Shown here in pieces: positions 3,360-61,500 of a stretch of 64,000 nucleotides of DNA. The notes under the pieces were generated by a model. That model did not search any database. It saw only the letters and a list, made by a program, of their open reading frames with translations, and was not told the origin of the DNA. A program made the position numbers and the translations under genes. This stretch comes from Pomphorhynchus laevis (Eukaryota; Acanthocephala; Palaeacanthocephala; Echinorhynchida; Pomphorhynchidae). Position 1 is the first letter of the stretch. The number at the start of each line of letters is the position of its first letter. Location: the NCBI GenBank assembly GCA_012934845.2, contig WNNJ02003651.1, forward strand, positions 1 to 64,000, in the 5' to 3' direction.

Positions 3360-5804
3360 TTATGGTCTTTCCGTTATATAAACGACAACACCGGTAATTT
3401 TATGCAATTCGACAATATAGGCATTCTTCTTGTGCGTTACAAATCCTATCAGTTTAGTACGTGTTTTCAGATTGTTTTGAACAATTATACCAAGATCCAG
3501 AATGGACTGCGTGGAAACAACAAACTCATCGCCAATAAAATATTCTTGACTCACATTGCTATGACCTAATCTCATATGTGCACACTTTTTAATATTCAAT
3601 GTAATTCCAGTGTTTAAAGACCATCTATAAACAATGTTTAGGATATTTTGAAAGTTATTTCGATCCTTGTTGGTTCCAATCAATTTCCATACCTTTACAT
3701 CGTCGGCAAAAGCTAAAACACTACAATCCTCAATTAAATCTAGTAGCTGATTTATAAATATGTTAAACAACAAGGGTCCTAAGACTGATCCCTGTGGTAC
3801 TCCTGAGGTTATAGGACGATAAGACGATAGGGATTGACCTACACGAACAGCAAAGGATCTATCTTTAAGAAAATCTCGAATCCAGCTTATAATGGAGCGA
3901 TTGACTTTATAAGACTCAAGGGTGGAAATTAGCATTTTGTGGGGAACCCTATCAAAAGTCCGACTAAAGTCAAGAAATATTATGTCGATACAGTACCCGT
4001 TAGCAACATGTCCAACCCAATCTTCACGAGCATGTAATAAGTTTGTAAGACATGAACGCCGAGGGCGAAATTCATGCTGTGCATTATTGAGAATTCTTAG
4101 CGAACTCAAATGATCATATATGCGTCTGTTTAGTATGCGCTCAATCACTTTGCATACAACACTAGTTAGACTTATTGCCCTATAGTTATTCGGATCATCT
4201 TTTTCACCATTTTTATAAATTGGTACTAAAATCGCTTTTTTCCAGGCAGCAGGTAACTTCGAAATGCGCAAGCTCAGCTCAAATATGGAGGCTAATTGCT
4301 CAGCCAGAACAGGAGCAAGTAACTTAAGAAGTTGGGGGTGAATATCATCGGGGCCTGCCGCTGATGATCTAGATAACCTAGCCAATTCAACAAAAACCTC
4401 ATGTGCTGTTATCGTTAAAACTGGAGAACCAATTTCTACCTGTTGTTATGCTGCATCTCCACATATGCTAAAGAAAGCATCTGGTGTCAGCTCAAAAGCG
4501 GATGCAAACAATTCTGCCATGCTGTCTGGCGATGTCACTCGAGTGTTACCGTCTCTTAAAGATGAAATTGCTGGTAGCAGAGCTCTGGATCCTTTCACAT
4601 AAGCCCAAAATTTTTTTGGTTCTGTATCAATTTGTAAAGCTAATTGATCTTCAAAAATTTGCCTTTTTGTAATCTTAAGGCGATTGACGAAATTTCGGAA
4701 CATTGTATACCGCTTTTTAAAATTATTCTGATGACGGCTTAGTTCAAATAGACGATTCCTATGTTTGAGAGCATATCGCAATTCAGTGTCAAACCAAGGA
4801 GGGTATTTAGCTTTACTTTTTGGTAATATACGGAGTGGTGCAAACTTATCTGCAAGAGCTACTAAACCTGATTCAATAACATGCCACCTTACCTCAATGT
4901 CTTCACTAGCACAGTTGAATGATGTTCTTAGTGCCGCCTCTCGTAATGAGTCTTCATCAATTTGTTGCCAAGATCTTTTCGACACTATCAAATTTTCCAG
5001 TTTTGGGATCATACACCTAGAAAAATAATTGAATAAGATCATGCAATGATCGCTCAATCCAATATTACTCTGATAGCTCATATTACCCACACTTGTAATT
5101 AATTTGGAAAATACCAAATCTAGACAAGATTCCTGGTTTTGCACGAATCTGGTGGGCGACTGCACATGTTGCTCTAACATGAGATCATTTGTAAGAAAAT
5201 TCCACAAATCCGCATCTGACTTGGAAGAACTACTATCCAAAACATAATTCCCGATGTGACCAGCTGAGGGTATATTAAAATCGCCAACTAGTAGATATTC
5301 TTCAAGCTCAGAACATTGACTAATTAGTGTAGAGAATTCATGACTCAATACGGATGATTGCGGCGACCTGTAGCACACGGCAATACCTAAGGGACCTCCG
5401 AAGTGTGAAACAATGACTGAGAGAAACTCACACGTGCCCAGTTCATTTTTAAAATTACGAGTGGAAGTAATGTTTAAGGGTGTCGATATATATAGCGCAA
5501 CACCTCCACCCTTCCGAGACTCTCTATCAGCTCTCACCAAATTATATTCCATAATAGCAATTAAACCATCGGGGATATCACGATGCAGCCATGTTTCAGT
5601 GAGAGCCAGGATCGCTGGTTTATTTAAGATGACCCATGCCTTAAGTTCATCAAATTTTGGTAAAATACTCCTTAAATTAGTATAGGCGACACTAATACCA
5701 GAAGCAGAGGGTAATTGAGTAGTAATGTTGGATGTGATATCAATGCGCGCTAGATTTCCTAATTGTAAAATGGAATCCCTCGAAGAACTCTCCAAACTCA
5801 CCAA
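3360..5804 (-). pseudogene. Non-LTR ORF2: AP endonuclease and reverse transcriptase
   Basis: The N-terminal 230 residues are an APE-type endonuclease: YTNLRSI, LTETWL, GGGVALYI, LLVGDFNIPS and SDHCMILF are its conserved blocks. A linker leads to the RT with SAAGPDDIHPQLLK, LVPIYKNG, NYRAISLTSVVCKVIERI, FLDFSRTFDRVPH (motif A), SGVPQGSVLGPLLFNIF (motif B) and AFADDVK (catalytic motif C). One TAA at about 4447-4449 splits the frame; the same frame continues immediately after it, so this is a point nonsense mutation. The ORF2 frame has no early ATG and overlaps the ORF1 stop, suggesting reinitiation or frameshifting in the parent. The C-terminus is missing. Confidence 0.88.
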
Positions 5805-6925
5805 CGCACGAATGGTCGCCGACGAACTACTCGAAAATTTCTTATCATTAGATCAGTCTCTCCATTCGATCTTCTAAATGCTAGATTAGCACGAGCATTA
5901 TTAAGCAACAATCTTTCCTCAACCGAGAGATCTTTAAAAATTTTTGTCGTCTTACCTTTCAAGCGATAACCTCTAGCTAAAACTGCTCTTGTATTATCTG
6001 CAGAATCAAATACTACTTTAAGTAATCGTGGTTTGTGTTGTGCTTTTTTACCAAGACGAAATAAGCTTTTGACATTGAGACTACGCGCAATATTCTCTTC
6101 ACCCTGAACGAATATATCCGAAAAGACCTTACGAATAGAAACTACGTCATCATCCACACGGGTCTGAACGTTGTCTGCAGAAGATTCAGTGATGTTAGCA
6201 AAAATTACGCAATTATTTCTGTTTCTAGCACGATTCCTAATATTGATAATTTCAACAAATGTCTTATCTGTCAAATCATTGGATTTCAGTTCATTTTCAT
6301 TTCCGACTGCCACATCATTGCACACTCTATCATCGTCTCTTGTCTGCGTTCTACTTAAAGGCTGCTTCAATACATTCTTTGGTCGAACAGGAGTAGAAAT
6401 CAATATAGTGTGGTTCTTAGGACTGTGTTCCGCGAATATGTCAGATAAAGGTGAAGGCCATTTAGTAATACTCTCAGGTGTAACTTTATCCTTGTCGTTT
6501 GCTATCACAGTGCTGTCATTGATATTTCTTCTTTGTTTATATACCGTCCGTGAATGTTTATGTCATCGTGTCCAAATGCGAGTCGAACTTGAAGCATCTA
6601 TTACGTCTGGTTCCTTATTTGAATTGACGTGTAACGACATCGGCGTAGTGATTTTGCTCTGGCATATGCTAGATTCTTTGTCAATTATTTGTTCTTGAAT
6701 CTTGGGTGTCTTTAAGTTAAAATGAGCATTGTCCTTTGCTGATGTCGGTGAACTACAAAATACGATTGACGCAGTACAAAAACCAAATATGAATTTTCTT
6801 CTACTCAATGTATCAGCATCTTTATGTGGTACAGTTACTGTAGTCCAGACATTGCAGCCATCACCATCACATCCTACTTGTCTTGATATGAATTCAGGAA
6901 TATCGTTTCCCTTACGTCTGCCCAT
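5798..6925 (-). pseudogene. Non-LTR ORF1 (RNA-binding, gag-like), one nonsense codon
   Basis: The reading frame runs from ATG at 6925 to the stop at 5798 with one in-frame TGA near 6560, in a CGA-like context (the residues around it read STRIWTR then HKHSRTVYK). The C-terminal half has the pattern of ORF1 proteins of many invertebrate CR1-like elements: a hydrophobic strand (NNCVIFANITES), then RLGK, RLLKVVF, DLSVEERLLLNNAR and a terminal DLMIRNFRVVRRR. This is an RRM-like fold plus a basic tail that would coat element RNA and act as a chaperone. A short acidic N-terminal region precedes it. The stop overlaps the start of the ORF2 frame. Confidence 0.7.
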
Positions 6926-7306: not shown

Positions 7307-7813
7307 TTAATCGTCATTTTCAACCGAGTCGGCCGTCTAGGTTTTATCGTTCTTCACATGATCATCAGTTGTTGTATCCTCATTGCTCTCGTCGTCTTCT
7401 ACCGAAGATTCACCATCGGATTCTTCTTCGTTTGCTTTCTCTTTTTCATCCGCTTTCACGTCCACATTCTCGTCTGTGTCATTCTGTATTGCCTCTGATG
7501 ATAGTTCTTGCACGTCACTTACAACTGAGACAATTTAAGTAGTTCCGTCGGTGATAACATTTTCGTCTTCGTATCTTTCCGCTGCCCATCCAGCTGTCGT
7601 TTCTCCTGACAACGCATCGATTCCATTCTCAGTCGATTTCATCAAGAAAGGATCTTCTGTTCCATTCATGACGTCTTCATCTAATCGGCCGTGGTCATCA
7701 TCGTACAACATTCTTTGTTCGCCTGTATCGTGAACTTACCCTTCTGTATGGGTAGCGGACGCGGCAATGATCGCCTCAAGCATACACGCCGCATTGTCTT
7801 TTGAACAGTAGCG
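7307..7813 (-). pseudogene. Unrecognised acidic protein remnant
   Basis: One minus-strand frame reads for about 165 codons with only three internal stops (TAA, TAA, TAG). Composition is strikingly non-random: the second half is a tract of Asp, Glu, Ser and Thr (EEESDGESSVEDDESNED), and the first half includes MLYDDDHGRLDEDV and AAERYEDENV. I do not recognise the family. It lies between the 5' end of the CR1-like element and the truncated 3' end of a second RLE element and could be host-derived sequence or an element ORF. Two of the stops fall in GTAAGT-like contexts, so small introns are an alternative to decay. Confidence 0.4.
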
Positions 7814-19540: not shown

Positions 19541-19896
19541 AGTCTACGTATTTAATATAATTATAAAATAAACAAAACATATTAATGCTAAATCAAAATT
19601 TAATAATTAAATAATAAAATTAATAATTGCTTTTAGATTTTCTATAATTTAAATTTTCTATAATTTAAATCAAGTTAAAAAAATGAAATTTAAAATAAAC
19701 GTCATTTTTATGAATTGAGTAATAAATAACAGACGTTGTATCAGAATAATAATTAGAGGTCATCAGGAGGAACTGCTATGCTATCAGGTTTCGGCCCCTA
19801 ACTCCTCTACCCAACATAGCAGCGAGGCCAAATACATGCTAATGATGTATTTCCTCTGAAATAACTATCTAGTATCTTATTCTAATACAAAGTATA
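19541..19896 (-). repeat. 3' terminal repeat of endonuclease-less PLE, copy A
   Basis: In sense (minus) orientation this begins immediately after the PLE coding end. It contains the structured module, then a recurrent tail (TATTTATTACTCAATTCATA, long A/T tract, ending ACTCAGTTAGCTGATTTAATT-like). The same module-plus-tail unit recurs at about 23150-23460, 25068-25400, 36650-37003 and 52996-53440. Confidence 0.8.
19738..19888 (-). ncRNA. Structured PLE terminal RNA module, copy A
   Basis: The module is 151 nt, the same length as the copy at 52996-53146. The minus strand has closing arms GTATTAGAATAAG and ATTATTCTGATAC, the hairpin AAATACAT-loop-ATGTATTT, and interleaved helices GGCCTC/GGGGCC (one U-G pair) and CTGCTATG/CATAGCAG. 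Confidence 0.65.
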
Positions 19897-21480
19897 TTAT
19901 TTATTATCCATCCATAAAAATTTGCCACTTAAGAGTTTAAATTTATTCTTTATATTATTGTGTTGATTTATATATTTTACTATTTTCTGCTTGATGTTAT
20001 TTTTATAGTAACCTAGTTTAAAATATGTATCTATTAAATTATTTAAATGATTTTGAAGAAAGCCAATATCATTACATATTGTTGCAATTCTTAAAATTTC
20101 ATTGTTTAATGTATTATATTTTATATTATATGGTATGCATGAATGCTCATGCAAAAATATGTTTCTTGTAAATTTAAATATGTCATCTTTACGATATAAA
20201 TTAATAGTAGTTTTAGTTAATGTTAATTTAATGTTCATATCTAGATATACACCTTCTTTATCATTAATATTGGTTTTGTTAAGAATAAGGCTTTCTGGAT
20301 AAATGTGCTCACTAATTGAATAAAAATCATTAGAATTAAATACACATATATCATCAATGTATCGAAACATATATTTCATATATTTATATTGTTTAGATTT
20401 AGTTTTTACACAGTTATGAACAAATTCATATTCTATAAAGCTTAAAAACAAGTCAGCTATAATTGGGCTACTATTACCACCCATTGGAACACCTTTTACT
20501 TGTCTAAATATAGATGTCCCTACTTTTAAATAATTTTGATTTATCAAAATATTTAAGGATTTTATTAATTCAATTTTATCCATTTATTTATATTTATTTG
20601 ATGGTTTAATTTTTGTTAGATATACGTTATAATTATTATAACATATATATTTTTCCGAATATAAGATTAATTAATTTTACTAACGCTTCTTTAATATCTA
20701 CTAAATCTAGATTTGTATAAAGAGTACTAAAATCGTATGTATTTATATTTTGAAAATTTATTCCTTTTGTCTGTTCTAAAAATTCTTTTGTAGAATCAAT
20801 ACTGAAATAGTGTTTTATACCAGTATTAATTTCGATTACCTTGCAATATTTTTTAAAGTGTGCTTTAATTACTTTAAGTATTTTATTCATATATACAGAA
20901 AGTGGTTTTAATGTACATTTAAACGCACTACATATGAACCTAGGTTTTGATTGGATTTTTATGTAATTTTGGATTCCAATATAATATAGGTATAGTTTTA
21001 TTATCTAATTCAACCTTTATACCCTTTTTATCCATTATAGAACAGTGACTTGTAATAATTGTTTCTTAAACTCAACTCACTACGTTCATATGTTGGATTT
21101 ACATTTAAATCATTAGAATTAACCTCTTTCATTAGTATATCATAATAAAGCTTTTTGCATATGAAGACAAAGTTATTACTAGCTTTATCAATAGTTGTTA
21201 TTATATAGTTATCCTTTAATTTAGTAAGTTCTTTATACATATCTTTATTAATTTTATCTTTCCTTTTATAATTGTTTGTTATTTTCATTTTATTTTTAAT
21301 TTTATCAAATATATAATCTTTCCAAATTTTTATCTTAGATATATTCGAACTTTCACTATTAATCAGCTTACTAAAGTAATCATTTAAGTTATTATATAAC
21401 GAATTGTAAATTTTATTTTTGTCGTTGTTATTATTTAATCTATATTTATATCCTTTTGATAGCAGCTTTCTAAACAACAT
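19897..21480 (-). pseudogene. Penelope-like reverse transcriptase without C-terminal endonuclease, copy A
   Basis: Three minus-strand frames together give a nearly complete RT. 21480-21028 carries the N-terminal block NYIITTIDKASNNFVFICKK. The following segment holds YWNPKLHKN across a frame change. 20890-20636 has the NTYDFSTLYTNLDL block. 20583-19897 has VPMGGNSSPIIADLFLSFIE (motif B), RYIDDICVFN (catalytic motif C), EGVYLDMNIKL and a terminal helix ending KFLWMDNK. Only two or three indels separate the parts. No GIY-YIG domain is visible after the RT, where canonical PLEs carry it, nor before it, so this is an endonuclease-minus or otherwise arranged PLE clade. The stop is followed at once by the terminal repeat with the structured module. 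Confidence 0.85.
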
Positions 21481-21854: not shown

Positions 21855-22600
21855 TTGGCAGTCACATGTTTAAGATTAAAGAAGATAGCAGTTTAACATC
21901 CTTACGTTTCACATATTAATGACCAGCTCTGAAATCTATTTCAAAATACATATTATCGTATTATCTATCAATTAATTAATTAATTATATCATTTTTGAAT
22001 TTGTTCAAATTTATTTTTAATCATTATAAAATAGCTTGATATAATACATCGAACTTTATATCAATGATTAAAGTTTTGTTTAAAATAAATGTGTGTTCAT
22101 ACTTAGTTTAAACGAATGTGTTCTAATACTTAGTATTAGAATAAAATACACCAAATATTAAATTTCATCAAAAAATACGTCATTAGCGTGTATTTGACCC
22201 CGTTGTTATGTCGAGTCGAGGAATTGGGGCCAAAACCTGGTTAATTAGCATTTCCTCCTGATGACGTCTAATCCTTCTTATGATATATCGTCCTTTATTT
22301 ATTAGTAAATTTATAACAATTAACTTTTATTTGCGTCTTAATGCCTACTTTTGATTTTAAACGTTGCTTTTGGTTGCTTATAATCAAATATTTATGTTAA
22401 GCGTGCTTGAGCATATTTTGCTTTTGCATAATACTTTAAGTAAATTCTTACAGTGGTGAAACACTTCCGTAAGAATGAAACCTGATATTGAAATAATGAT
22501 GAGAATAATAATTAAACCTGATTACATCGCAGTTCCATCTGGTGCACTCTATTCCTTAATCGAATACATCGTCTATTATTTATTAGTCAATTCATAAAAC
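21855..22600 (+). repeat. Long direct duplication, copy 1
   Basis: About 750 bases, starting TTGGCAGTCACATGTTTAAG, recur almost unchanged at 28300-29090. The second copy holds a roughly 60-base A/T segment that is absent here. Each copy contains a diverged structured module and a PLE-like tail, so it is a distinct PLE terminal-repeat subfamily or a segmental duplication. Confidence 0.85.
22133..22286 (+). ncRNA. Diverged structured PLE module, subfamily 2
   Basis: The hairpin arms change from AAATACAT/ATGTATTT to AAATACGT/GTGTATTT, keeping pairing through G-U wobbles. The first pseudoknot helix becomes GACCCC/GGGGCC with one mismatch. The second pseudoknot helix is lost because its 3' arm is deleted. 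Confidence 0.5.
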
Positions 22601-23150: not shown

Positions 23151-23460
23151 ATTTAATATAATTATAAACTAAACGAAACATAATAATGCTAAATCAAAAT
23201 TTAATAATTAAATAATAAAATAAATAATTGTTTTTAAATTTTCTATAATTTAAATCAAATTAAAATAAAAAATTGAAATTAAAAATAAACGTCATTTTTA
23301 TGAATTGACTAATAAAGAACAGACGTTGTGTCAGAATAAGGATTAGAGGTAATCAGGAGGAACTGCTATGCTATCAGGTTTCGGCCCCTAACTCCTCTAC
23401 CCAACATAGCAGCCGGGCCAAATACATGCTAATGATGTATTTCCTCTGATTAAATTTGAT
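23150..23460 (-). repeat. Inverted PLE terminal repeat with module inside copy B
   Basis: Tail and module are in minus orientation while coding fragments on both sides are in plus. The module core spans about 23328-23455 with GGCCCG/GGGGCC and CTGCTATG/CATAGCAG arms. Beyond it, at 23468, the closing arm appears inverted relative to other copies, so this end was rearranged. Confidence 0.7.
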
Positions 23461-25067: not shown

Positions 25068-25215
25068 GTATTAGAATAAGATACTATATAATCAAATTTC
25101 ATCAGAGGATATAACACGTATTTGGCTTCGCTGCTATGTTGGGTAGAAGAGTTAGGGTCCGAAACCTGAAAGCATAGCAGTTCCTCCTGATGACCTCTAA
25201 TCCTTATTCTGATAC
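25068..25215 (+). ncRNA. Structured PLE module, copy B 3' end
   Basis: Closing arms GTATTAGAATAAG and CTTATTCTGATAC and the second pseudoknot helix CTGCTATG/CATAGCAG (with one flanking change) are intact. The hairpin and the first pseudoknot helix carry mutations. It lies downstream of the copy B coding body in the same orientation, like the other copies. Confidence 0.6.
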
Positions 25216-28287: not shown

Positions 28288-29100
28288 ACTGCCAACACTA
28301 ATTGGCAGTCACATGTTTAAGATTAAAGAAGATAGCAGTTTAACATCCTTACGTTTCACAGATTAATGACCAGCTCTGAAATCTATTTCAAAATACATAT
28401 TATCGTATTATCTATCAATTTAATTAATTAATTATATCATTTTTGAATTTGTTCAAATTTATTTTTAATCATTATAAAATAGCTTGATATAATACATCGA
28501 ACTTTATATCAATGATTAAAGTTTTGTTTAAAATAAATGAGTGTTCATACTTAGTTTAAATGAATGTGTTCTAATACTTAGTATTAGAATAAAATACACC
28601 AAATATTAAATTTCATCAAAAAATACGTCATTAGCGTGTATTTGACCCCGTTGTTATGTCGAGTCGAGGAATTGTGGCCGAAACCTGATTAATTAGCATT
28701 TCCTCCTGATGACGTCTAATCCTTCTTATGATATATCGTCCTTTATTTATTAGTAAATTTATAACAATTAACTTTTATTTTAAATTTCAATTTTAAATTT
28801 TATCGTTATACGAATCTTAAATATTATTTATAAAATCGTCGTAATGCCTACTTTTGATTTTAAACGTTGCTTTTGGTTGCTTATTATCAAATATTTATGT
28901 TAAGCGTGCTTGAGCATATTTTGCTTTTGCATAATACTTTAAGTAAATTCTTACAGTGGTGAAACACTTCCGTAAGAATGAAACCTGATATTGAAATAAT
29001 GATGAGAATAATAATTAAACCTGATTACATCGCAGTTCCATCTGGTGCACTCTATTCCTTAATCGAATACATCGTCTATTATTTATTAGTCGATTTATAA
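28288..29100 (+). repeat. Long direct duplication, copy 2
   Basis: Near-identical to 21855-22600, with a roughly 60-base A/T insertion at about 28787-28845. A short repeat of TATGTGACTGCCAACACTA precedes it. The two copies lie about 6.4 kb apart in the same orientation. Confidence 0.85.
28581..28746 (+). ncRNA. Diverged structured PLE module, second copy of subfamily 2
   Basis: Sequence and pairing are like 22133-22286, including the wobble-preserving hairpin arms AAATACGT/GTGTATTT. Confidence 0.5.
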
Positions 29101-36649: not shown

Positions 36650-37003
36650 ATCAAATCAGCTAACTGAGTCTACGTATTTAATATAATTATAAAATAAACA
36701 AAACATAATAATGCTAAATCAAAATTTAATAATTAAATAATAAAATAAATAATTGTTTTTAAATTTTCTATAATTTAAATCAAGTTAAAATAAAAAATTG
36801 AAATTTAAAATAAACGTCATTTTTATGAATTGACTAATAAATAACAGACATTGTATCAGAATAAGAATTAGAGGTCATGAATAGGAACTGCTATGCTATC
36901 AGGTTTCGGCCCCTAACTCCTCTACCCAACATAGCAGCGGGGCCAAATACATGCTAATGATGTATTTCCTCTGAAATAACTATCTAGTATCTTATTCTAA
37001 TGC
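36650..37003 (-). repeat. PLE terminal repeat, copy C
   Basis: Sense orientation is minus. The structured module lies at 36853-37003 (151 bases) and the tail runs to 36650, ending in the same ACTCAGTTAGCTGATTTGATT sequence as the other copies. Confidence 0.8.
36853..37003 (-). ncRNA. Structured PLE module, copy C
   Basis: Closing arms GCATTAGAATAAG/CTTATTCTGATAC, hairpin AAATACAT/ATGTATTT and both pseudoknot helices (GGCCCC/GGGGCC, CTGCTATG/CATAGCAG) are perfect. The inner helix is damaged by a small deletion near 36880. Confidence 0.65.
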
Positions 37004-39492: not shown

Positions 39493-41341
39493 TTATTTAA
39501 CTTTGAAATCGGATTTATTATTAAGGATTAAATTAGGTTTCTTTTTGATAAAATACACTTCTTGAATAATGCGAGATAACAAGTTACTTTCAAATGATAA
39601 AATAAATGCACTTTCAAAATCAACGGAATGATTCAAACTCACAAAATGCTGAGCAACAGCACTAGATGTAGACCCCTTAGGTACATTATAATTATGTTGT
39701 TTAATAAGTTTAACCAAACCTTGAGCGGTTTGACCAACATACACTTGTTCGCATTCTTTACAAGGTATTTTATAAACAATGGCATCTTTGTTAAAATCTG
39801 GTTTACGCTTAAAAATGTTGTGAAGTTTAGGTAATTTTCTGTTAAAAATGTGCACTTTGTTAATACAACTATTTTTTCATGTTATTGTTAATAAACTTTG
39901 AAAATACTGAATTCCACTTGTTACTAACAAAAAATATTCCTATATGATGTATTCTTTTTTTGAACCAAAAACTTTATTTTTTTTGCGCTAAAGATTTAAA
40001 TTTAGCTCTCCTAATAGCCCAAAGCGGAAAACCAATTTTTAGTAAATTATGAATGATAGCCTCTTCTCTTTCACAAATTAAGTGATAGTTAGAACAGATA
40101 AGCCTGCAACGTAGGTAATGTGACGTAGCAGCGGAAATCAGCCAATTAGTTGGGATGCTTGAGTCCACGAATCAATATTTGGTCCTGTACCAAATTTTCG
40201 ATAGACACATGTTTGAAGTATAGAATAATTAACCCGCTTAACCTAGACATCGAGAAAAAGTATACCCAAATTAGATTCAAAAAACGCACCATTGAATTCG
40301 AGAATCCTTAGTTGTTAGCGTATGGGTAAGGAAATCCAGTGTAACGCAATTCTGAGCAATCAAAATACATCGTCAACATAACGAAACTACTTGACAACTC
40401 CATCAATACTATTGACAAAAGAATTTTCCCAATTCCTCATGTATAACTTGGACAATACAGGAGCAAGAGGGTTGCCCATTGCCAATCCACCGATCTGATC
40501 CCACATTACAGATTCAAAAATAAAATTGCAACGACCGGTACACGTTGTAAGGTGAGTATGCCAATCTTCATGATTAAGAAGAATATCACAAGGTGTGTTA
40601 AGAGCTAATATATCAGCTGCAATGTTTATAGCATCAGAGAGTGGAATGTTAGTATAGAGAGATGATGTCAGCTGTAAACAATGAATGTTCAAGAGCGTTA
40701 TGTCCACGGATTAAACGAGAAAAATGAGGTCCATCCTTAATGTATGAGAAATGACTATCAGTTATATGAAATCGTAAAGTGGTTGCATTAAAATTTGAAA
40801 TTTAATAAGAAAAAGTGTAATATGAAGCTACAATTGGTCTTGCACTGTGTTGAACTTTGTGAGTTTTCGGCAATAAGTATAAAAATCCTGGTTTAGCATT
40901 TTTTAAAGATAAGATTTAAGAAACTTATCAAAAAAATTTCTTTTAGAAAGCAACTGCCGTAGGAATCTATTAAACTCACTTTGTCGAGTAGCTGTAGGAT
41001 CATTATTTAATCGATCAAATTTATGGCAATTTAGTAATGAAAGACCCATTCGCGTATATTTTTCCTTATACGAAACAACAAACTTGTTATGTTTATCAGC
41101 CTTAGATACGACCAAACCCTCTTCATCAACTTTCTTTTACACTAATGATGGTTTTGTTCAAAACATTGGGAACATCAACATCTTTACTCATTAATTTAAA
41201 GTTTAAATTAAAGAAATTGTCTAAATTATAAATAATGTTTTCTGAGAAAATAAAAGTCTTTTCTAACTCCGAAGATAACTGTGCACGTAAACGACATGGT
41301 GGAGTAAAGTAACCTAAAAAGGAACCCAATTCAATGTTCAA
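39493..41341 (-). pseudogene. Canonical Penelope-like element: RT and GIY-YIG endonuclease
   Basis: Minus-strand blocks run in order. N-terminal helices ELEKTFIFSENIIYN are in 41341-41126. VVSKADKHNKFVV and DPTATRQSEFNRFLRQLLS are in 41115-40903. The RT block SSLYTNIPLSDAINIAADIL with GGLAMGNPLAPVLSKLYM is in 40707-40387. A connector is in 40168-39974. The GIY-YIG domain IVYKIPCKECEQVYVGQT with a VAQHFVSLNH helix and SRIIQEVYFIKKKPNLI is in 39855-39493. The catalytic D-D pair and some frames are lost; the endonuclease frame is open. It belongs to a different PLE clade from the copy A family, and is bounded by inverted repeats. Confidence 0.85.
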
Positions 41342-43566: not shown

Positions 43567-46500
43567 GTAATTATAGTCTCTTTTATTAAATTCGCTTTGA
43601 TGACTGTTTTGCTTTTTTATTTAATGTAGGCGTTATGTCTTCGTCACATTACGATGCTAACTTGTCCTCTGATCAGCCTAAACATTCAAGTTTGCAACGT
43701 AGATTTATTCGAGAAGTAGTTGTCGAGCGTAGACAAGAGGACGATCAGTTTGATGTTGTAATTATGCAACACTTAGACTGCTTACTCGCTGTAGGACCTG
43801 GATTTTTTCCGCAAGATATACTAATATCTTTAAACGATAGAAATTTGGAATCTATGCCAGCTGAGAAAGTTAACCGAATTATACGATCATTAGCAGGAAG
43901 AACGTTGACCGTACAAGTTCTTTCCTTACACACTCATGAATCCTCATCAGACAAGAAAAGAATTAAGCGCTTTGGAACGCTAAGATCAAGACAGGTAATT
44001 GTTATAAATATGAACATCTCACAGTTTGTGACGTTTGAAGACTAGAAAATCGTGAAATATTAATTTTGTTTAATAATAACATTGCTAAAACGTTTTAATT
44101 GAAAAGTTTCTGACAAACAAATATTTTTTAAATTTAAATAAAAATTAAATGTGCTTATATAAAAATTAATATTTATTTAAAAAATCCTCCTCATATAAAC
44201 TGGTTTTAGATAGAATAGTCATTTATCGTATTAAAATTATAATATGATAGACATATTATAATGAACATATTATATTTACTTTAATAAACAAAATTTGTTT
44301 ATTGTTTCCACTGATTCGGAGGTCAGGTTATAGATGCAGTTCACGGACGAGACGTGACCAAGTATCACAGTCTTAAGTGACCAACCACACTTACCTTCTA
44401 GATAATCGTAATCGATCCTTTGCAAAATGGAGAGTTTGATCAATTCACCAATTCCAAGCGCGTACCAACTCCCGAATAGTGCAAGCTCCAACCTTGATCC
44501 ATAAGTTGAATACTGGAACCAGAATAATAGAGTTAGGTTACTCCAACTATTTTAATATCTGATCGATTTACTACCTCCCTAGATCTGGTTCTTTTCCTCA
44601 GCGAAGTAACGCTCCAGCAGATAGACTAGTCAATTGAAATGACCGTCGACGTTTGGCTCGCCTATTTCACGCAACTAATCCAGCGCACTGCACCCAACTT
44701 TGACAATTCTTCCTGTTAGTTGTAAGCTGTACGTCGTTTTGATCTTGATCCATTAAATTTTATCTTGTCGTCATTGTTATTGTCGTTGGTTTTTTAGTTA
44801 TCTGCTGTCACCTTATCATTGAGTAATCCAATACCATTTCCTGTAACAAACCTATTTTTGTTCAGATCTCTGCTGTCTCCCATATCATCTGTTAGTCCAT
44901 TATTTTTTGTTGCGAGGAAGCGATACCTTATTGACTATTGACGTTTTTACGCTTTCTTAAGGTTAATCCACCTATAGGATCATAAAAGGGACATGAGCTA
45001 GTTCATTAAATATCTAGCTCTACGGCTTATACAATCCGGTAAGTTATTTAGCCTCCTTAATATCAGGTGTTGCCCAGAACTCACCACGCGGAGGTTAAGA
45101 CCCGAACCAAATTCATCACTCGACGACGGATCAGTTTAGCCTGTCCATAAATTAAAGTTTTAAATAAGTTTTTAAAATCTCAAAGTCTAATATTATAATA
45201 TAATATTATTGTCAAATATATAATATTACTATACGATAAGTACGATATTGTATATGCAAATTACAATGTAGCACTTCAATAATTAAAATTTAAACACATC
45301 AAAATAAATTAGGAATAAAAATAAATAAAGTTAGCTTTTAAATTAATAATATTGATATATTATGTTTGATAAAAATTTAGTCAAGGTTGCAACCGAAAAA
45401 TGTTTTAGGAAATATCGTATTAGTAAATTCATATAGTATATCGAATTTTATTCAATCTGAATCTAATAAAGATAACATTAACAATTTTTTAATAAGATAA
45501 TTAGAATTCTATTAGATAAAAACGGATTTCCATCATAGGCAGTTTAAAATAATAGATAAATACAGGAAAAGTAAGAAAAAGATAAATACATTAACCATTT
45601 TTTGTCATAATTTCTGTCAGCAAATTTTATTAACTTTGATCTTATTTCAAAAAATGCAAAACTACATCTATAAGTTTTTTAAATAAACTTAAAGTCTATG
45701 CTAATAGATGACATCATAAAACCAGCATTTGTTAGAAGGATTTTGTTAAATAAATATTAGATTTTATATAAGCACATTTAATTTTAATTAAAATTTAAAA
45801 AATATTTGTTTGCCAGAGACTTATTATGAGGAAACTTCATATAAAGATAATTATAATTATAATTATCTTATTAAAAAATTGTTAATGTTATCTTTATTAG
45901 ATTCAGATTGAATAAAATTCGATATACTATATGAATTTACTAATACGATATTTCCTAAAACATTTTTCGGTTGCAACCTTGACTAAATTTTTATCAAACA
46001 TAATATATCAATATTATTAATTTAAAAGCTAACTTTATTTATTTTTATTCCTAATTTATTTTGATGTGTTTAAATTTTAATTATTGAAGTGCTACATTGT
46101 AATTTGCATATACAATATCGTACTTATCGTATAGCATTATTATATATTTGACAATAATATTATATAATATTAGATTTTTTAATTAATATAATTTTTACTT
46201 TTAGTTTTGGGATTTGCAAAGTACTTTAGATAAAAAGTGCTTCTTTCTTTTCAAGTACTTTAATACACGTACACTGTTATTTGATTAAATTACAGATTTT
46301 ATTAAAGTTAGAATAAATAAGTTAACAAATTAATGTTATCTTTCATTAGATTCAGATTGAATAAAATTCGATATAGGAATTTACTAATACGATATTTCCG
46401 AAAACATTTTTCGGTTGCAACCTTGACTAAATTTCTATCAAACAAAATTTCAATCATTAGTTGGCTCTTTCTCCGGAAAATTATATTTGATTTATATTTG

Positions 46501-49500
46501 TTACACTAAATGCCTTTCTACGTCATTAGCATGTATTTGCCCCCGCTGCTTGGTTGGGTCGAGGAATAGGGTTTAAACCTATTATTAAATATAGGTGTAT
46601 TATTAAACCTATATTTTTTATATATCGTATTAAAATTAATTATTATACTAAATGATTTCCTACGATGTTTTGCATTTGTTTAAGGAAAGCAATATCACTA
46701 AGAATAACTACTGGCTGCTGGATAACGATGGCTATATTCCTGTTGTGTTACTTGATGTTTTAAATAAGAACAAGAGTCGGGTTCGATTCGTGAACAATAT
46801 GTCCGTTGTTTCAGAAGTTAATTCTGATTTGTTAGAAAAGGTTTGTTAGAAAAGTTTAAAGGTTTATGTAAAATAAAAAAATTTTAAATAAAAATATTTA
46901 AAAAATTATACATTAAATGATTAAAAAATTAATCATTTTTAAAAATTGAATTTTATTATTAAAAAATAATTAAAAGCATTTAACTATTATATTTTAATTT
47001 AAAATATAATATTATATTTTAAATATAATTTATAATTAATACTTTTAATTTAAAATATTTTATTATATTTTAATTTAAATGTGAATTTAATTTTTATAAG
47101 TTTGTTAAAAAACGTATAAAGCTTTTGGTTTAAAAAACTTGATATTTTACTTTAAATAAAAAATATAAAATACCCATCTTAATAAGATACTTAATTAAAA
47201 ATATATATACATTGCATAGAACTGACTTACCTACTAGGTTTCCTAGTAGGTTGTTAGTTAATTTAATAACCTAGTTTAACTTACCTAGTAGGTTACAGTT
47301 AAGTAAAAATCCTTTTATCTACATTTAGGCAATAAATGTTTGGTGTTCAGTAAACATGAATAAATATATAAATTGGATACAAATCTTCTGATATTAATAA
47401 ATTCAAACAATTAAATTATATTCAAACAATTAAATGGTCGAGGAATAAGACCGAAACCTGATAAATATATTACTGGTAAAACCTGATAAATATAACATGG
47501 ACACAAATCACCTGATATTAATAAATTCAAACAATTAAATGGTTGAGAAATAGGGGCCGGAACCTGATAACATAGCAGTTTTTTCTGATGACCTATGATC
47601 CTTCTTATGCATCGGCTGTTATTTATTAGTCAATTGTTAAAAATTGACTTTTATTTTAAATTCAAATTTTCAATTTAAACTTGATATAAATATAAATTGT
47701 ATAAAATCCTATATAATTATTTATTATTTATCTTTATTTTTATTTAGAGATAGTATAAAATACGTTGACTAAGTCATCTGATTTGATTTAACTAGATAAG
47801 AATATGATAATTTTTAAAGTTTGTTTTAAAAATATAATATAATATTTATAATAAAGATAATTATATTATCTTTATTATTTTATAATAAAGATAATATTAT
47901 TTATTAAGAATGTGCTATTTATTTCTTATAAGAATTCGCAAATCTTATTCTTAATTTTTCGTAATCAAGCACTATCCCAAACAACAATGATTTGAAATGA
48001 CTTGTAAAATTTGTATATACACAATTATAAAAAAACGTACAAATTTTTTACTTATATACTTAGATTATATACTTAGATTTCTAAAGCTGCTAAAGCTCGT
48101 AGGGAAGCGTTTCATCGAAGTAAAAATAGAAATAACAATTTTATTTGTATAATTTTAAATAATTTTGATTTATTAAAATATTTAAGGCTTATATCAGTTC
48201 AATGTTTTCCATATATTTATATTTACTTGATGGTTTCAAAAATTGCCTATGCAAAAATTGTAATAATTTCAAAACTGTCAACTACAATGTAGGGGATTGT
48301 ATATGTCATAGATGAAATGACATCGATACTGCTACTGTCTTTTAGTACAAAATATCGAAAGCAATATAACTATAATAAGACGTTTATAAAGATATGTATA
48401 CAGAACTTAGTAAATTAAAGGATTACTATATAATAACAACTATTGATAAAGCTAGTAATAACTTTGTCTTCATATGCAAAAAGCTTTATCATGATATATT
48501 GATAAAAGAGGTTAATTCTAATGATTTAAATCGTTGAGAATTGCATTAAATATATTAGTTTTTCAAATGTTTATCTTTGATGTGTTTAAGCTTCCACTAT
48601 TAATCAGATTACCAAAGTAAGCATTTAAGTCATTATATAACGAATTGTAAATTTTAATTTGATTGTTGTTTTTATCATTTTCGTTACATATTGATTTTAA
48701 TTCTTTATTATAATTACAAATACTTATTATACTTATAATTATATATTATCAGTATTTTTATTTTTGTCGTTGTTTTTATCAGTATATCATAATAAAATTT
48801 TTAATGTCAAGCCTTATATGCTTGTAATATACATACATATAATCTATGTTCACCATCTAATTTTACAAGAAACACTAAATTATTTTAATATTTTAATGCT
48901 TTTTTTATCATACTGAATTCAGTTTTGTATTTTTTATTATAAAAATAATAAACTTCACTTGTGCCTATTTCTCAAAATTTATTTTAAAACCTAAAAAAAT
49001 GAAAAAATTCGTAAAGATTTTTTATAAAAATCTTATCATGATATTAAACTACGAGCAGGCAGGTTTTTAAAATCTCTTGTTACACCTTTTCTCAAGTTAT
49101 CCTTCATTATTACTCCGGTATATTAATAACCAGAGTTATTTCCAATAACTCTGGTTATTGGAAATTCAAGTTGTTAAATGTAGAAGCTGAATTCTCGCAC
49201 TCACCGATAATGATCCAAATAAAAAGGAATAAAACAAATAAAATTGATAAACGTTATCGACTAGCTTGATTCGCTAGACTGAATATCAGCTGTCTTTATG
49301 CAAAGGTGGGAAGCATTTACCACCTTTGAGAAAGTTCCTGCATTTGCAAGTTTTGCAATAAATACTGCTTTAACCACTGACTTTTATTCACTGATTTATC
49401 TGTGAGGTACTGAGCAAAAAGGGCTAAAATCAAGTAGGTAAGTTGTGAAGTTATGATAATTTTATAATTTATGAAATTGTACGAAGAAATTACTAGTAGA

Positions 49501-52500: not shown

Positions 52501-55500
52501 GCTTGTTTATCTTTTTATGACGAGTGTGCTTTGCTTTGCCCTGTTTACAATCTAGTGCGTGTTGATCGAATGCATCTGACTTGTCACCACAAGCACATTT
52601 TATCGATAGAAACTCCCAGTCGCATGCCAATTGATAAAAGTAGTGTCCACCAAGCGTGTGCCAACCATTGTAATCGGCAATGTAACTGTCTCAAAACGCA
52701 TCCGATTGCAATTAATCTGATTACGCCTGTCTTCTTCCGTAACGGGATAAGACGTGCTCCGCAGAAGCGCGTTTCATTCCGTTATGGCGAATAATTGAAA
52801 TATAATAATTTGCAATGATATGAATTTTCAAAATCATTTAAATAATTTAATGGATACATATTTTAAACTAGGTTACTATAAAAATAACATCAAGCAGAAA
52901 ATAGTAAAATATATAAATCAACACAATAATATAAAGAATAAATTTAAACTCTTAAGTGGCAAATTTTTATGGATGGATAATAAATAATATACTTTGTATT
53001 AGAATAAGATACTAGATAGTTTTATCAGTGGAAATACATCATTAGCATGTATTTGGCCCCGCTGCTATGTTGGGTAGAGGAGTTAGGGGCTGAAACATGA
53101 TAGCATAGCAGTTCCTCCTGATGACCTCTAATCCTTATTCTGATACAACGTCTGTTATTTATTAGTCCATTCATAAAAATGACTTTTTAAATTTTAATTT
53201 TTTAAATATCATCGGTCGCCGACATTATATCGTAAAGATGACATATTTAAATTTACAAGAAACATATTAATAAAATTAAATTTCAATTACAATTAAAATT
53301 TCAATTTAAAATTTTAACAAAATTTATAAATTTTGATATAAATATGAATTGTAAAAAATCTTATATAATTATTTATTATGTATCTTTATTTTTAATTTAT
53401 ATATAATATAAAATACCTAGACTCAGTTATCTGATCTGATTTGTTCTACTGACAAGTTATTATTGACATGTGGACTTTGATTTCCCGGTAATATAACCTC
53501 TGTCAAAAATACTGAAGCATTTACATTTAAAGATAAAAGACATTTACATTTGATCTAATTTTTAAATTAGATTTTTAAATTAGTTAAAAATTCAAATAGA
53601 TAAAGAAATACAATTTACATTAAAATAAGAAGTAAATAATTTAAACTGATTATGTAAATGCTATTTACTAGAAAATTAAAAGTAAAAAATTCAAGCCGTT
53701 TATGAAAATGCACTTTATTAACAAATTAAAAAATTTAACCCGTTTATGAAAATGTAATTGTTTTTTTAAATACTGAATACTTATTATAAATTTATAGTAA
53801 TGTATTATTGATACGACATATTTTACTTTGATTAGTGCAAATCAGAGTATGCATTTTGTTAAAATTCAGTTAGAAAAATATGGATTTGATTCAGAAAACT
53901 CACATATGGTCAAAGAACTATTAAACACAGTCGTGAAGTTAGATAATATGAATCCTAAGATTTTATTACAGTGTGCCATAAATATATCATATCATATCAT
54001 ATTTTAAGATTTTTTAAATGTTAATTTTAAATTTTATCTTGATATAAATATAAATTGTATAAGTAATGATATTGGTTTTCTTCAAAATCATTTAAATAAT
54101 TTAATAGAAACATATTCGTAGCAAGATCAGTTCATGCTCCCTCATCCTCCGTGACATCCGAAGTGTCCGTAGAAACCTCGACGTCAAATCGACAGCTATT
54201 TTAATCTCCAGCCTTTTCATGCCTCGTCTAGAATATTGCTTAGGTCTTCTCGTAAACTGTCCAGCATATCAATTTTACTATTTACAAAGGATTCTGCACA
54301 TGGCTGCTAGGGTCATCTTCCGCCTTCGCAAGTACGACCACATCTCCAACACCCTCCGCATCCTTAACTGGCTCGACATTCCGAGCCGCATAACCTCTCA
54401 AATTCTCACACTTGCATGGCAAATCAAATTCCGGCACAACCCTCCTTATCTATATCTTCCTGATAGCGCATCCTATATGACGACTGGTCTCTCCCTAAGA
54501 AGTCATCGCTCCTACTCGCTTTTCGTCCCCCGTCACAACGGTAATCACGGATATCGTGCGTTCATCATCGCTGCACCACGCCTTTGGAACAAACTTCCTC
54601 GAGACACAAAATCATTGATGTCGCTTAAACACTTTAAAACTTCCTTGATCGCCATACTTCTTGCAAACGAACTAAAATAACACTTTCAGCCGCAATCAAT
54701 TCAATAACTCTTCATACAAGTTCAAACATTCATCGGACGTAAACTTGTCTTTTAATTTTTATAGTGGGCCTGTAAATGATCTATTTACCATAAAGGCCAC
54801 TCTAAATAAATTCTATTCTATTCTATATTTTAAACTAGGTTACTATAAATATACCATCAAACAGAAAATAGTAAAATATATAAATCAACACTATAATATA
54901 ACGAATAAATTTAAAATCATTAAATTTTTAATGATTTTCCCGCTAATAATATTAAAATCATTAGCGGGAAATTTTTATGGATGGATAATTTTTAACTTAT
55001 TTTTAATAACTTATTTTTAAGCTTTAAATAATATGAATTTGTTCATGACTGTGTAAAAAATAAGTCCTTATTATATAAATATATGAAATATATGTTTCGA
55101 TATATTGATGATGTGTATTTGACTCTAATAATGTTTATCAATTAAGTGAATAAATTTTACCATGTAACCTTAATCCTTAAAACTAATATAAATGATAAAA
55201 TAAGTACATATTTAGATATGAACATTCCATATAATATTAAATATAATACATTAAATAATGAAATTTTAAGAATTGCAACAATTTGTAACGATATTGGTTT
55301 TCTTCAAAATCATTTAAATAATTTACTAGATACATTTAATTAGGTTACTATAAAATTGATATATAAATCAACACAATATTATAAAAAATAAATTTAAACT
55401 CTTAATAATCTCAGTAATCGGCAATGCCTGTAGAAAGGATTTAGACTATGGTGGTGACACGGCCAACCAAACTGAATATGTCAATAATCGTTTCGTAGTT

Positions 55501-58500: not shown

Positions 58501-61500
58501 CACTCTTATTTTTTTGTAAATTTGTTGCTTGTAATTTTCATAGTATTAATTTTGTTTGTTCGGCTATATCCCGTTCCCGATATCCTTTGACGATCCAGCA
58601 TCGCTATTGTAAGAAAACAGACGTTTGCGACACTATTCCACCTTTTCGTTCATTGTCTAATATGCCGTTGTAGTCATTGGTGTGATTTTGTTTGTTCGGC
58701 TATCTCCTATTCGTGATATCCTTTGAAGATCCAACATCGCTACTGCAAGAAAACAGGCCTAGTTGATTCTCTTCGTCATTTTTGTTAATTGTTCAATTCG
58801 TCGTTGCGTTCATCGAAGGGATTTGAGATAGTCTATGAAAAGATTATCCCTATGGCTTATGCAAACGGGCCTATTATTTAGTCGTTGATCGATTAATGTC
58901 GAACATACGTTACCTGGGCGGCTTCACGAAGATTCTAATTGGCAATAGGTGCCAGCTTCATACTTAATCTACAGGTACCTAGCGGCCCAAATTAGATTTT
59001 AATTTTTTGAAAATTTCTTACATAAGACCTTGACAATTTAAATAATTTCTTGTTGTCTTTTTAATGCGACAATTTTTATCTTTCTATCCTAAGAGATATA
59101 ACTTAGAATTTGAATATAATCTTTAATACTTTGTAATTGCTATTTTATATTTTATTTTCGATAATTTTCGTATGAATCGCTAAATATATAGTTTAATAGT
59201 TTTAGTTTTTGATCGTAAATATAAAAGTCAAGAGTCTTAAATACGTTCTACAGCCATTTTTGCGTCCCCCATAGATGCAACAAGCGCTTCAAGATTAGTA
59301 TCACGGCTATGGAATCGCACCGTCTGCATTTGCACAAGTTCGGATGCATAAAGTTGTTCTTGAGTTTGGTTTGATTGTTGATTTGTCGGCTGATGTTGCT
59401 GGGGTTGAAGACGATTAAATGGTTGAAACAACGAAGCAGTATGATCTTGATTTGAATTTTGTAAATTTTGAAATGCTGTTGTTGCATAAGCTGTTTGTCT
59501 ATTGTTTGGTGATTGAATGAAATCCACATTGAATGAAGTAGGTTGACTATTCTTTTGATTATCGACTAAATCGCTTATATTTGAAGAGATCAACTGTGGA
59601 TATACTTGTGGGGATGTATCCCTAAGACGAAGTAGGTTTTGTAGAATTTGTACAATCGGCATTAATGCTCGAGGATTTGTGTATAGAGCACGAATTTCAG
59701 GTTTTGTACCCTGACTTATAAACTCATGAATTACACGATGTACTTGTTCTCTTTGTCTTTCGTCAGCAGATTAAGTAGAATACCAGGATTGCGGATAGAA
59801 TTATCCATGTTTGGATTAAAACTGGATGCCCACAACATGTCGCTTAACACGCGAGGATTTTCTGCAGCGACTACTAATAATTGTTGAGGGTTCATCGTAG
59901 AATACCGATTAGTGTTTTCGCTTGATGTAGATTGCAAAGGCGACTCTAAACAGTTTGTATTAGATACATATGATCTAGACGAATCGACTAAATTAAATGG
60001 CAAATGATTTAAAATGGATGCAGATCGATTATTTTGAAATGTAGTATTCTGAGATGCCCCCGGGATTAGGCAGGGGGTTTGTATTTTCAGTTCCTACTTG
60101 ACTATTGTTAGCTGTACTAGATGAGCTAGAATTAGTATGAGATTTTATGCCATGAAATTAGCACCGGCGACAAAGGGCACGAGGTCGTTCGGGAGAGTAC
60201 CAGCGATCATGTTGTTGACTAGTGACGTTAGGCGTTAAAGCAAAATCGCATGATCTACCGACAGCATATCTCGAATATGTTCTGTCCTCAAACCTAAACA
60301 GCCAGGAGTGGAAGAGGATAGGAATGATGATACTGCGGCCTTATCTATGTCCGAGTCAATCGACAAGGGGGTACTCAAAGATGTTTGTCCATGACTTTAA
60401 AGAACATTATGTAAGGGGTGTAGCTCTGTCAGTCTTCCGCACAAAGATTCTGAAAATTCGCATATATTATTCGATGTAAGGCTGCGCATCGCTTTTCCGA
60501 AATTGCCATTTCTTGCCAATTCGATGACTTCCATAAATTCATTTTTCTCATCATGAGCTCCTCTGAATTTCCTGGTAGATCGAAACCTCGAAGAGGAAAA
60601 GCAATCACGCTCTCTTCCACTTTTGAATTTGTCTATATGCGCATTAATATTAGATCTAGTGTTGTCTCCGGCATGGTGCCGACCTGAGGAAGTCTGTAGG
60701 CATAGCTTCGGGAAGCAGAGCAAACGCTCCCAATCGTGGGATGAATTTGAGCACAATGCCTCTAGAATTAAAGAAGAAAAAACATCGCCAACTCGGCGGC
60801 GAAGATTTAAAGGTATGCGCTTGATCGTGTTTACTGGTTCCATCGAAATCCTATGAAGAAGCTCGAAGGATTTGTCTTGATATTCGCAGCAAGAACTGTC
60901 CATCTTTTCAAACTGAAACGATGTCTCCAAGGTGTTCTCGTCGGCGTCTAAAAACTCAGGTATTGTGTCAGTTGATTCGATTACGTTGTGAGAGCTGACT
61001 GTCGGTAGCTGTCATGATCCTGAGCATCGCAAGTTCACAGGTCCGTGTCCCGGAGATGACCTGATGCATTAAGGCGAAACGATCTGCCACAGGCCACGCA
61101 ACTACCCGTATTCGCTTGCATGTTATCGCAAGCTCAGTTTTGTATTTATTAATTGTAAGTAGTTGGTTCGTAGCTGATTCGTAGTTGGTTCGTAGTGTAA
61201 GTTGGTTCGTAGTGTAAGTTGGTTCGTAGTGTAAGTTGGTTCGTAGTGTAAGTTGGTTCGTAATGTAAGTTGGTTCGTAGTGTAAGTTGGTTCGTAGTGT
61301 AAGTTGGTTCGTAGTTGTATCTATGTATGTTAATTTATTTCAAACTTTTTTAGGTTATAGTTTTTATAGTCTAAATTCAATGGTTATTATTATTTGTTCC
61401 GCGTATAATTATAATTATATGCCATCAAGTGATTTAAGATAACGAATAATTTAAGTATTATTATATAATTATATTTATATTATATTATAATATAATTATA

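Follow-up and report, generated by a model that had tools for sequence, protein, structure and literature searches.

The question raised by this locus is what kind of RNA is specified by a 151-nt module that occurs in seven full copies within the window (the whole 64-kb stretch of DNA analysed here) and lies just behind the open reading frame (ORF) of a Penelope-like element (PLE). A preliminary description had read the module as a set of nested and interleaved helices and as a structured RNA different from the hammerheads that canonical PLEs carry in the equivalent position, possibly a self-cleaving ribozyme of HDV-like topology or a docking site for the reverse transcriptase (RT). We think it probable, judging from sequence, that the module is instead a hammerhead-type ribozyme with its core blocks in S-G-C order, placed in the terminal repeat of a PLE that encodes GIY-YIG and RT domains, and we predict that it is capable of self-cleavage. 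The features on which the argument rests are collected in Table 1.

Table 1. Positions in the window of the module copies, the adjoining RT frame and the structural elements of copy 52996-53146
Feature	Position	Strand	Remarks
Module, copy under study	52996-53146	+	GAAACA (C to A); fails hammerhead descriptor
Module copy	19738-19888	-	94.7% identity; sole full window copy passing descriptor, stems 8/8/8; predicted cut between 19808 and 19807
Module copy	36853-37003	-	94.0% identity; CTGATGA mutated
Module copy	23328-23455	-	94.5% identity, match begins at module position 25; CTGATTA
Module copy, second subfamily	25068-25215	+	82.7% identity; one stem I mismatch
Old module copy, GTC site	28581-28733	+	76-77% identity; absent from preliminary description
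Old module copy, GTC site	22133-22285	+	76-77% identity; absent from preliminary description
C-terminal RT part of PLE ORF	19897-20583	-	Directly upstream of module copy 19738-19888; RVT_1 E 1.2e-06, just below curated cut-off
Closing helix, 5' arm / 3' arm	52996-53008 / 53134-53146	+	13 bp; -13.6 kcal/mol as duplex
Hairpin AAATAC/GTATTT	53032-53054	+	Read from the sequence
Interleaved (pseudoknot) helix 1, GGCCCC/GGGGCC, candidate stem IIb	53055-53060 / 53086-53091	+	-12.5 kcal/mol
Helix 1, 3' arm GGGGCT (GGGGCC in most copies)	53086-53091	+	Adjoins GAAA
Interleaved helix 2, outer part of stem III	53062-53069 / 53104-53111	+	3' strand CATAGCAG
Stem III 3' strand CTGCTATGTTGGGT, ending with U16.1 (Block S)	53062-53075	+	Pairs with 53095-53111, 3-nt bulge
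Predicted cut, A53076 (H17) / G53077 (1.1)	53076/53077	+	Placed by hammerhead register; insertion 5' ends pile up from here
Stem I, GAGGAG / TTCCTC	53077-53082 / 53112-53117	+	Read from the sequence
GAAA (G12 A13 A14 A15.1, Block G)	53092-53095	+	A13 and A14 in 31/31 copies; G12 and A15.1 in 29/31
CTGATGA (C3-A9, Block C)	53118-53124	+	29 to 31 of 31 copies per position
Candidate stem IIa, TTAGGGG / CCTCTAA	53083-53089 / 53125-53131	+	-6.7 kcal/mol; 3' strand continuous with CTGATGA

The module is real, recurrent and structured. All five places at which it had been reported hold it, and the window also contains several module fragments that the preliminary description did not list. The closing helix, inner helix, hairpin and two interleaved helices assigned to it are all present in the sequence, the 3' arm of the inner helix overlapping CTGATGA, and copy 52996-53146 folds better than its dinucleotide shuffles (z = -3.37, with 2 of 200 shuffles as good; z = -3.78 and 0 of 200 for copy 19738-19888). 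The covariation that had been suggested as a check did not appear: over 31 copies neither these helices nor the hammerhead stems described below exceed shuffles, and the closing helix is without covariation. This test has little power because the copies appear to be degraded remnants of a small number of master elements. Missing covariation had been named in advance as grounds for abandoning the fold, and formally that is the outcome, but with degraded copies from a single genome the test cannot tell the alternatives apart.

Across the genome (249,390,268 bases in 3,242 contigs) a 15-mer from the G block of the module, CCGAAACCTGATAGC, occurs 5,133 times; in the module search itself 40 of 717 first-look candidates were scored. 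No relatives were found in viral contigs, by protein or by one exact pattern, or in genome contigs searched by one pattern, and the protein search for relatives gave a single distant metagenome RT. Used as a query (P0001; 150 of 10,423 candidates scored), a distant RT led to no divergent module from other PLE families of the genome, the matches listed being 29-31% identical to the query and including loci of the same PLE family.

The element that carries the module is seen best in an intact tandem array (L091) with a unit of 3,499 bp. Its ORF (908 aa, L091:1593-4316) has GIY-YIG near the N terminus and RT near the C terminus (GIY-YIG E 5.7e-06 for the N-terminal piece, RVT_1 E 6.5e-07 for the C-terminal piece), and no family was assigned when the whole 908-aa protein was compared with families. 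As GIY-YIG lies ahead of RT in one ORF, this is a PLE with permuted domains and in that respect Naiad-like. The module starts 8 nt past the stop codon of this ORF, both in the tandem unit and at 52996-53146. The relationship to the RT that the preliminary description had given, downstream and in sense or else isolated, is borne out for the copies beginning at 19738, 36853 and 25068, the last two lying behind RT remnants in sense that were placed by repeats, while the copy at 23328-23455 is an isolated module because the PLE sequence upstream of it has the opposite orientation. Copies of the RT part at 19897-20583 are 99-100% identical genome-wide (150 matches scored of 26,273 candidates, all in this range), several of them lie in open 908-aa frames, and the family has therefore been active recently; nearly identical copies also stand head to tail about 3.5 kb apart (C2904:189533 and 193032; C2046:1471 and 4991). 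A MITE was considered on account of the 13-bp inverted ends and dropped, since the module has a fixed place behind the ORF of a tandem unit.

Other features of the window may be recorded here. A second, different GIY-YIG frame at 39493-39876 (reverse strand; Pfam GIY-YIG E 0.0053, below the cut-off) has its stop right behind the domain and is perhaps the C-terminal endonuclease of another PLE type. Non-LTR retrotransposon-like frames with endonuclease-like and RT-like parts were recognized by eye at 3360-6562 (reverse strand), a near-perfect inverted repeat has 321-nt arms at 45191-45511 and 45852-46172 (98% complementary, 340 nt apart), and a tandem array with a 17-bp unit occupies 61166-61349.

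Contrary to the view that the module is a different structured RNA, it contains the core letters of the hammerhead together with stems I and III. All the core blocks are there, namely a cleavage site GU(A/C), GAAA and CUGAUGA; stems I and III flank them, and the blocks stand in the order S-G-C, which is non-circular. The common form of this part of the module can be written CTGCTATGTTGGGT-A/GAGGAG-TTAGGGG-CC-GAAACC-TGATAG-CATAGCAG-TTCCTC-CTGATGA-CCTCTAA, the slash marking the predicted cut. Stem III begins as GGU/ACC beside the site and GAAA and continues into CTGCTATG/CATAGCAG, and stem I (GAGGAR/TTCCTC) has the cut on one flank and CUGAUGA on the other. Thus, as in a hammerhead, CUGANGA lies beside stem I, GAAA is followed by stem III with the A15.1-U16.1 pair, and NUH is followed by stem I. 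The site is GUA, or GUC in the older subfamily. H17 is A in 94, C in 41, T in 10 and G in 2 of 150 aligned rows (3 gaps), which corresponds to NUH. Core positions depart from the majority letter in 3.5% of cells, compared with 9.2% over the module (p = 0.009 in a permutation test), a difference that taken alone is weak evidence. The suggestion that the module might be a self-cleaving ribozyme where canonical PLEs carry hammerheads gains support.

How readily such a combination arises was judged with a descriptor requiring CTGANGA, GAAA and UH, stems I, II and III of at least six pairs, any of the six block orders and 0-3 nt between stem II and GAAA. The real module gives stems of 8/8/8 (stem length counted up to 8). 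When the module was shuffled with its dinucleotides preserved, 1 of 1,629,038 sequences matched the descriptor, as did 11 of 280,494 permutations in which the cores were kept in place; shuffling of the whole window gave four matches in 3,136 shuffles. Applied to the window with every one of the six orders allowed, the descriptor returned five matches, only 19738-19888 having three long stems, and the single match in CGS order (position 7737, reverse strand) is far from any module. The module itself does not have the C-G-S order of canonical PLE type I hammerheads and gave no Rfam hammerhead match. When the window and the fetched loci were scanned together (689,600 bases as the sum of both strands, four loci inside the window excluded) there were 67 module matches, 48 of them with all stems of at least six pairs, and their cleavage triplets were GTA (59), GTC (6), GTT (1) and ATA (1). 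The 42 matches outside modules included none at 6/6/6 and one at 5/4/5.

The module also departs from a hammerhead in several respects. No stem II abuts both CUGANGA and GAAA. Stem IIa joins CUGAUGA directly, but CC separates it from GAAA (in 54 of the 67 module matches a stem II of at least five pairs starts 2 nt from GAAA), whereas stem IIb abuts GAAA and has a second strand that does not run on into CUGAUGA. These helices are mutually exclusive, IIb being computed as the stronger. Because of this irregularity we call the module hammerhead-like in S-G-C order and not a proven type-SGC hammerhead. Only one in seven full window copies passes the descriptor; that at 52996-53146 fails because GAAACA leaves two stem III pairs beside GAAA, the third pair being broken in GAAACA lineages such as this one. 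There are 124 distinct copies with a length of 140 nt or more; the core letters are in order in 78 of them, and 50 have in addition a stem I of at least five and a stem III of at least three pairs. GGGGCT or GAAACA is found in widespread lineages, with a weaker stem IIb or stem III as the result. Finally, the far end of stem III meets stem I without a linker, which by our reasoning is hard to accommodate sterically in the usual hammerhead shape; PMC10085705 remarks on a puzzle of a similar kind. A kink-turn in the stem III bulge was dropped by eye, there being no G.A pairs.

Cleavage of array transcripts within the module would lead one to expect full-length copies that start at that point. 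In a sample of 20 copies selected by 5'-UTR sequence, 12 continue through the whole module and 5 start inside it, 2 being broken elsewhere and 1 lying at a contig end. When all fetched DNA was searched with a profile, 240 matches were obtained (224 after removal of those overlapped by a better match on the opposite strand); with split copies and duplicates removed, 55 independent 5' ends at HMM position 91 or above were left. Seventeen of these fall in HMM 151-170, the bin that holds the predicted cut between 154 and 155 (p = 0.0013); the other six 20-nt bins of HMM 91-230 hold 4, 7, 4, 7, 8 and 8. The step from the four ends in HMM 131-150 to these 17 has p = 0.0036; split exactly at the cut, with 20 nt taken each way, the ends number 7 before and 14 after, which is not significant (p = 0.09). 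Pattern counts, which are raw and include old copies with indels, point the same way, with 110 copies having five foreign letters before the cut (anchor 5,133) against 55 for an equal window upstream (anchor 4,306); a downstream window, taken without an anchor total, gave 66. Among the 100 matches listed (90 distinct) four break cleanly at the cut (C252, C944, C1709 and C1722), one breaks there with a 1-nt deletion behind (C724), and by eye some 35-40 further breaks lie 2-13 nt behind it. Within the 8 nt ahead of the cut the pattern matched 45 times; most of these cases are 1-nt indels, and judged by eye about six are plausible ends. The 5' ends thus start fairly abruptly at the predicted cut and spread behind it, a pattern that fits RNA starting at the cut and copied nearly to its end and that is also compatible with RT stops at the GC-rich helix. 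Most 5' ends outside the module are scattered as in ordinary 5' truncation (L085, L037, L039 and other fetched loci).

The 3' ends behave differently. In 47 of the 87 loci with a usable match they fall at unit positions 1165-1184, most often 1172-1177. They lie not at the cut (between unit positions 909 and 910) but about 265 nt further on, with about 200 nt between them and the module. The template therefore runs through an uncut module, with its 5' end at the preceding one, and since insertions retain a complete module close to their 3' end, any cleavage must be incomplete. Short partial duplications of the 5' sequence of the element were also seen at 5' junctions (L093, L098 and L108; in the window at 22479-22530 and 47455-47600), for example AACCTGATA, GGGCCGATACC and TTTGGCCCCGCTGCTATG, as if the RT had jumped or restarted; the AACCTGATA repeats at some of these junctions prompted the idea of a telomerase-RNA-like template.

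In the mechanism that we propose, the transcript of a tandem array would be cleaved 3' of GU(A/C), between stem III and stem I, so that the RNA of the downstream unit would be trimmed to a 5' end reading GAGGAR...GGGGCCGAAACC. Stem II would be either IIa (UUAGGGG/CCUCUAA) or IIb (GGCCCC/GGGGCC), and exchange between the two may be what keeps cleavage partial or regulates it. The observations in support are the core letters, stems I and III in register, the position behind the ORF and the pile-up of 5' ends that starts at the predicted cut and extends behind it; from them we infer RNA cleavage itself, a stem II formed as IIa or IIb, and partial cleavage through their exchange. The G10.1-C11.1 pair is canonical in hammerheads, and it is through this pair that IIb abuts GAAA, while CUGAUGA comes in from the far 3' side. 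A variant of the fold, which we hold to be unlikely, would accordingly have a core of four blocks, with IIb as the active stem II, the backbone broken between A9 and 10.1, and UUAGGGG/CCUCUAA acting as a switch by which the 3' module escapes cutting and a downstream RT start becomes possible. If true, it would lie outside the six permutations described so far.

Some of the same evidence can be read without catalysis. The pseudoknotted module might bind the RT/endonuclease and position internal initiation by the RT about 200 nt downstream, its hammerhead core being a coincidence; the fixed place behind the ORF, the clustering of insertion 3' ends at that distance, the strong helices around the core and a protein-binding stretch reported near the hammerhead and RT start of an Anolis PLE (PMC11167929, accessible portion) would all suit this. 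We regard pure docking as rather unlikely, as it predicts neither GU(A/C), GAAA and CUGAUGA with matching stems, a combination reached by a single shuffle in 1,629,038, nor the pile-up of 5' ends; docking as such is compatible with the ribozyme reading. Distinctly unlikely, in our estimate, is a relic, in which the core would descend from a permuted hammerhead that has lost catalysis, the module being kept for protein binding or by hitch-hiking. The irregular stem II and the widespread GGGGCT and GAAACA lineages would then be explained, and the accessible text on the Anolis PLE has its RNA cleaved only with protein and insertion in vitro unaffected by hammerhead mutants, and so in no need of hammerhead activity (PMC11167929), but a relic accounts poorly for core positions that vary less than the rest of the module and for 5' ends that begin near the predicted cut. 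That the pile-up reflects the RT stopping at the GC-rich GGCCCC/GGGGCC helix, and not RNA cleavage, is very improbable as a full account: the ends do extend from the cut past +13, and some lie at or near GAAA (HMM 164-170), where such a stop would fall, but other helices are met first from the 3' side and those bins hold only 7 to 8 ends per 20 nt, and both the hammerhead core and the ends exactly at the cut would be left unexplained. RT stopping and the ribozyme reading can both be true.

Comparison with Rfam gave no match in the window at gathering score; with E values up to 10 there was no ribozyme around the window copy, in one tandem unit or in five further loci, where only weak snoRNA, miRNA or sRNA matches appeared. 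To our knowledge the Rfam hammerhead models cover only circular permutations, and they are therefore not expected to detect this module. The proposed HDV-type resemblance is left without Rfam support by the same search. Another ribozyme class, HDV-like or new and built on the helices first described, is scarcely credible, for although the helices are interleaved and in other retrotransposons the 5' end is defined by HDV-like ribozymes (PMC7761336, as far as its accessible text goes), no Rfam ribozyme matches up to E = 10 and the conserved letters are explained by the hammerhead core.

Returning to the hammerhead reading, its interest lies in where the motif resides. Type-SGC is a non-circular hammerhead order, and RNAs of this order have been shown to cleave (Eckert et al., 2023, PMC10085705); according to the available part of that report, non-circular permutations have so far come from metatranscriptomes and metagenomes, without hosts or roles, and genomes of known organisms hold no permuted hammerheads apart from one type-GCS candidate. 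In the titles and abstracts covered on permuted or non-circular hammerheads and PLE ribozymes (subscription papers were largely outside this scope) none reports a permuted hammerhead in a retrotransposon. A copy-rich case in the retrotransposon of one genome would give permuted hammerheads a place and a job. If true, it would mean that PLEs keep a self-cleaving ribozyme at this position while the architecture changes, and the role of PLE hammerheads becomes testable, with predicted cut, insertion 5' ends and RT start all on one 3.5-kb unit.

Among known systems, the HDV-like ribozymes of R2 and other non-LTR elements set the 5' end and have a pseudoknotted fold; the module would share both properties, but its core differs and has no Rfam match. 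Craig and colleagues are said to have described in 2021 Naiad and Chlamys PLEs with an N-terminal GIY-YIG, and the present element resembles these in having GIY-YIG before RT in one ORF and tandem copies. With the type I hammerheads of PLEs and Terminons, as described in the accessible text of PMC7761336 and PMC11167929, the module has in common a core that lies ahead of the RT start, within the terminal repeat of tandem units, and cleavage that is apparently incomplete; those hammerheads, however, are of circular C-G-S order with a tiny stem III or none and overlap the start of the ORF, whereas the module is S-G-C with a long stem III and follows the end of the ORF. The partial cleavage suggested here would by analogy resemble that of the Anolis PLE studied in vitro, in which the RT initiates internally, downstream of the hammerhead (PMC11167929, in part). 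Like the type-SGC hammerheads (HRIMA-1 motif and variants; available text of PMC10085705), the module combines S-G-C order with mutually crossing stems, CUGANGA, GAAA and UH, and a stem I strand that runs almost directly into a stem II strand. Unlike them, it has stem II out of register (CC before GAAA), adds a rival helix, an outer closing helix and a hairpin, and resides in a genomic retrotransposon. Type-SGC hammerheads also have an extra helix that links stems I and II on their outer sides; in the module the bases just before stem I' belong to stem III.
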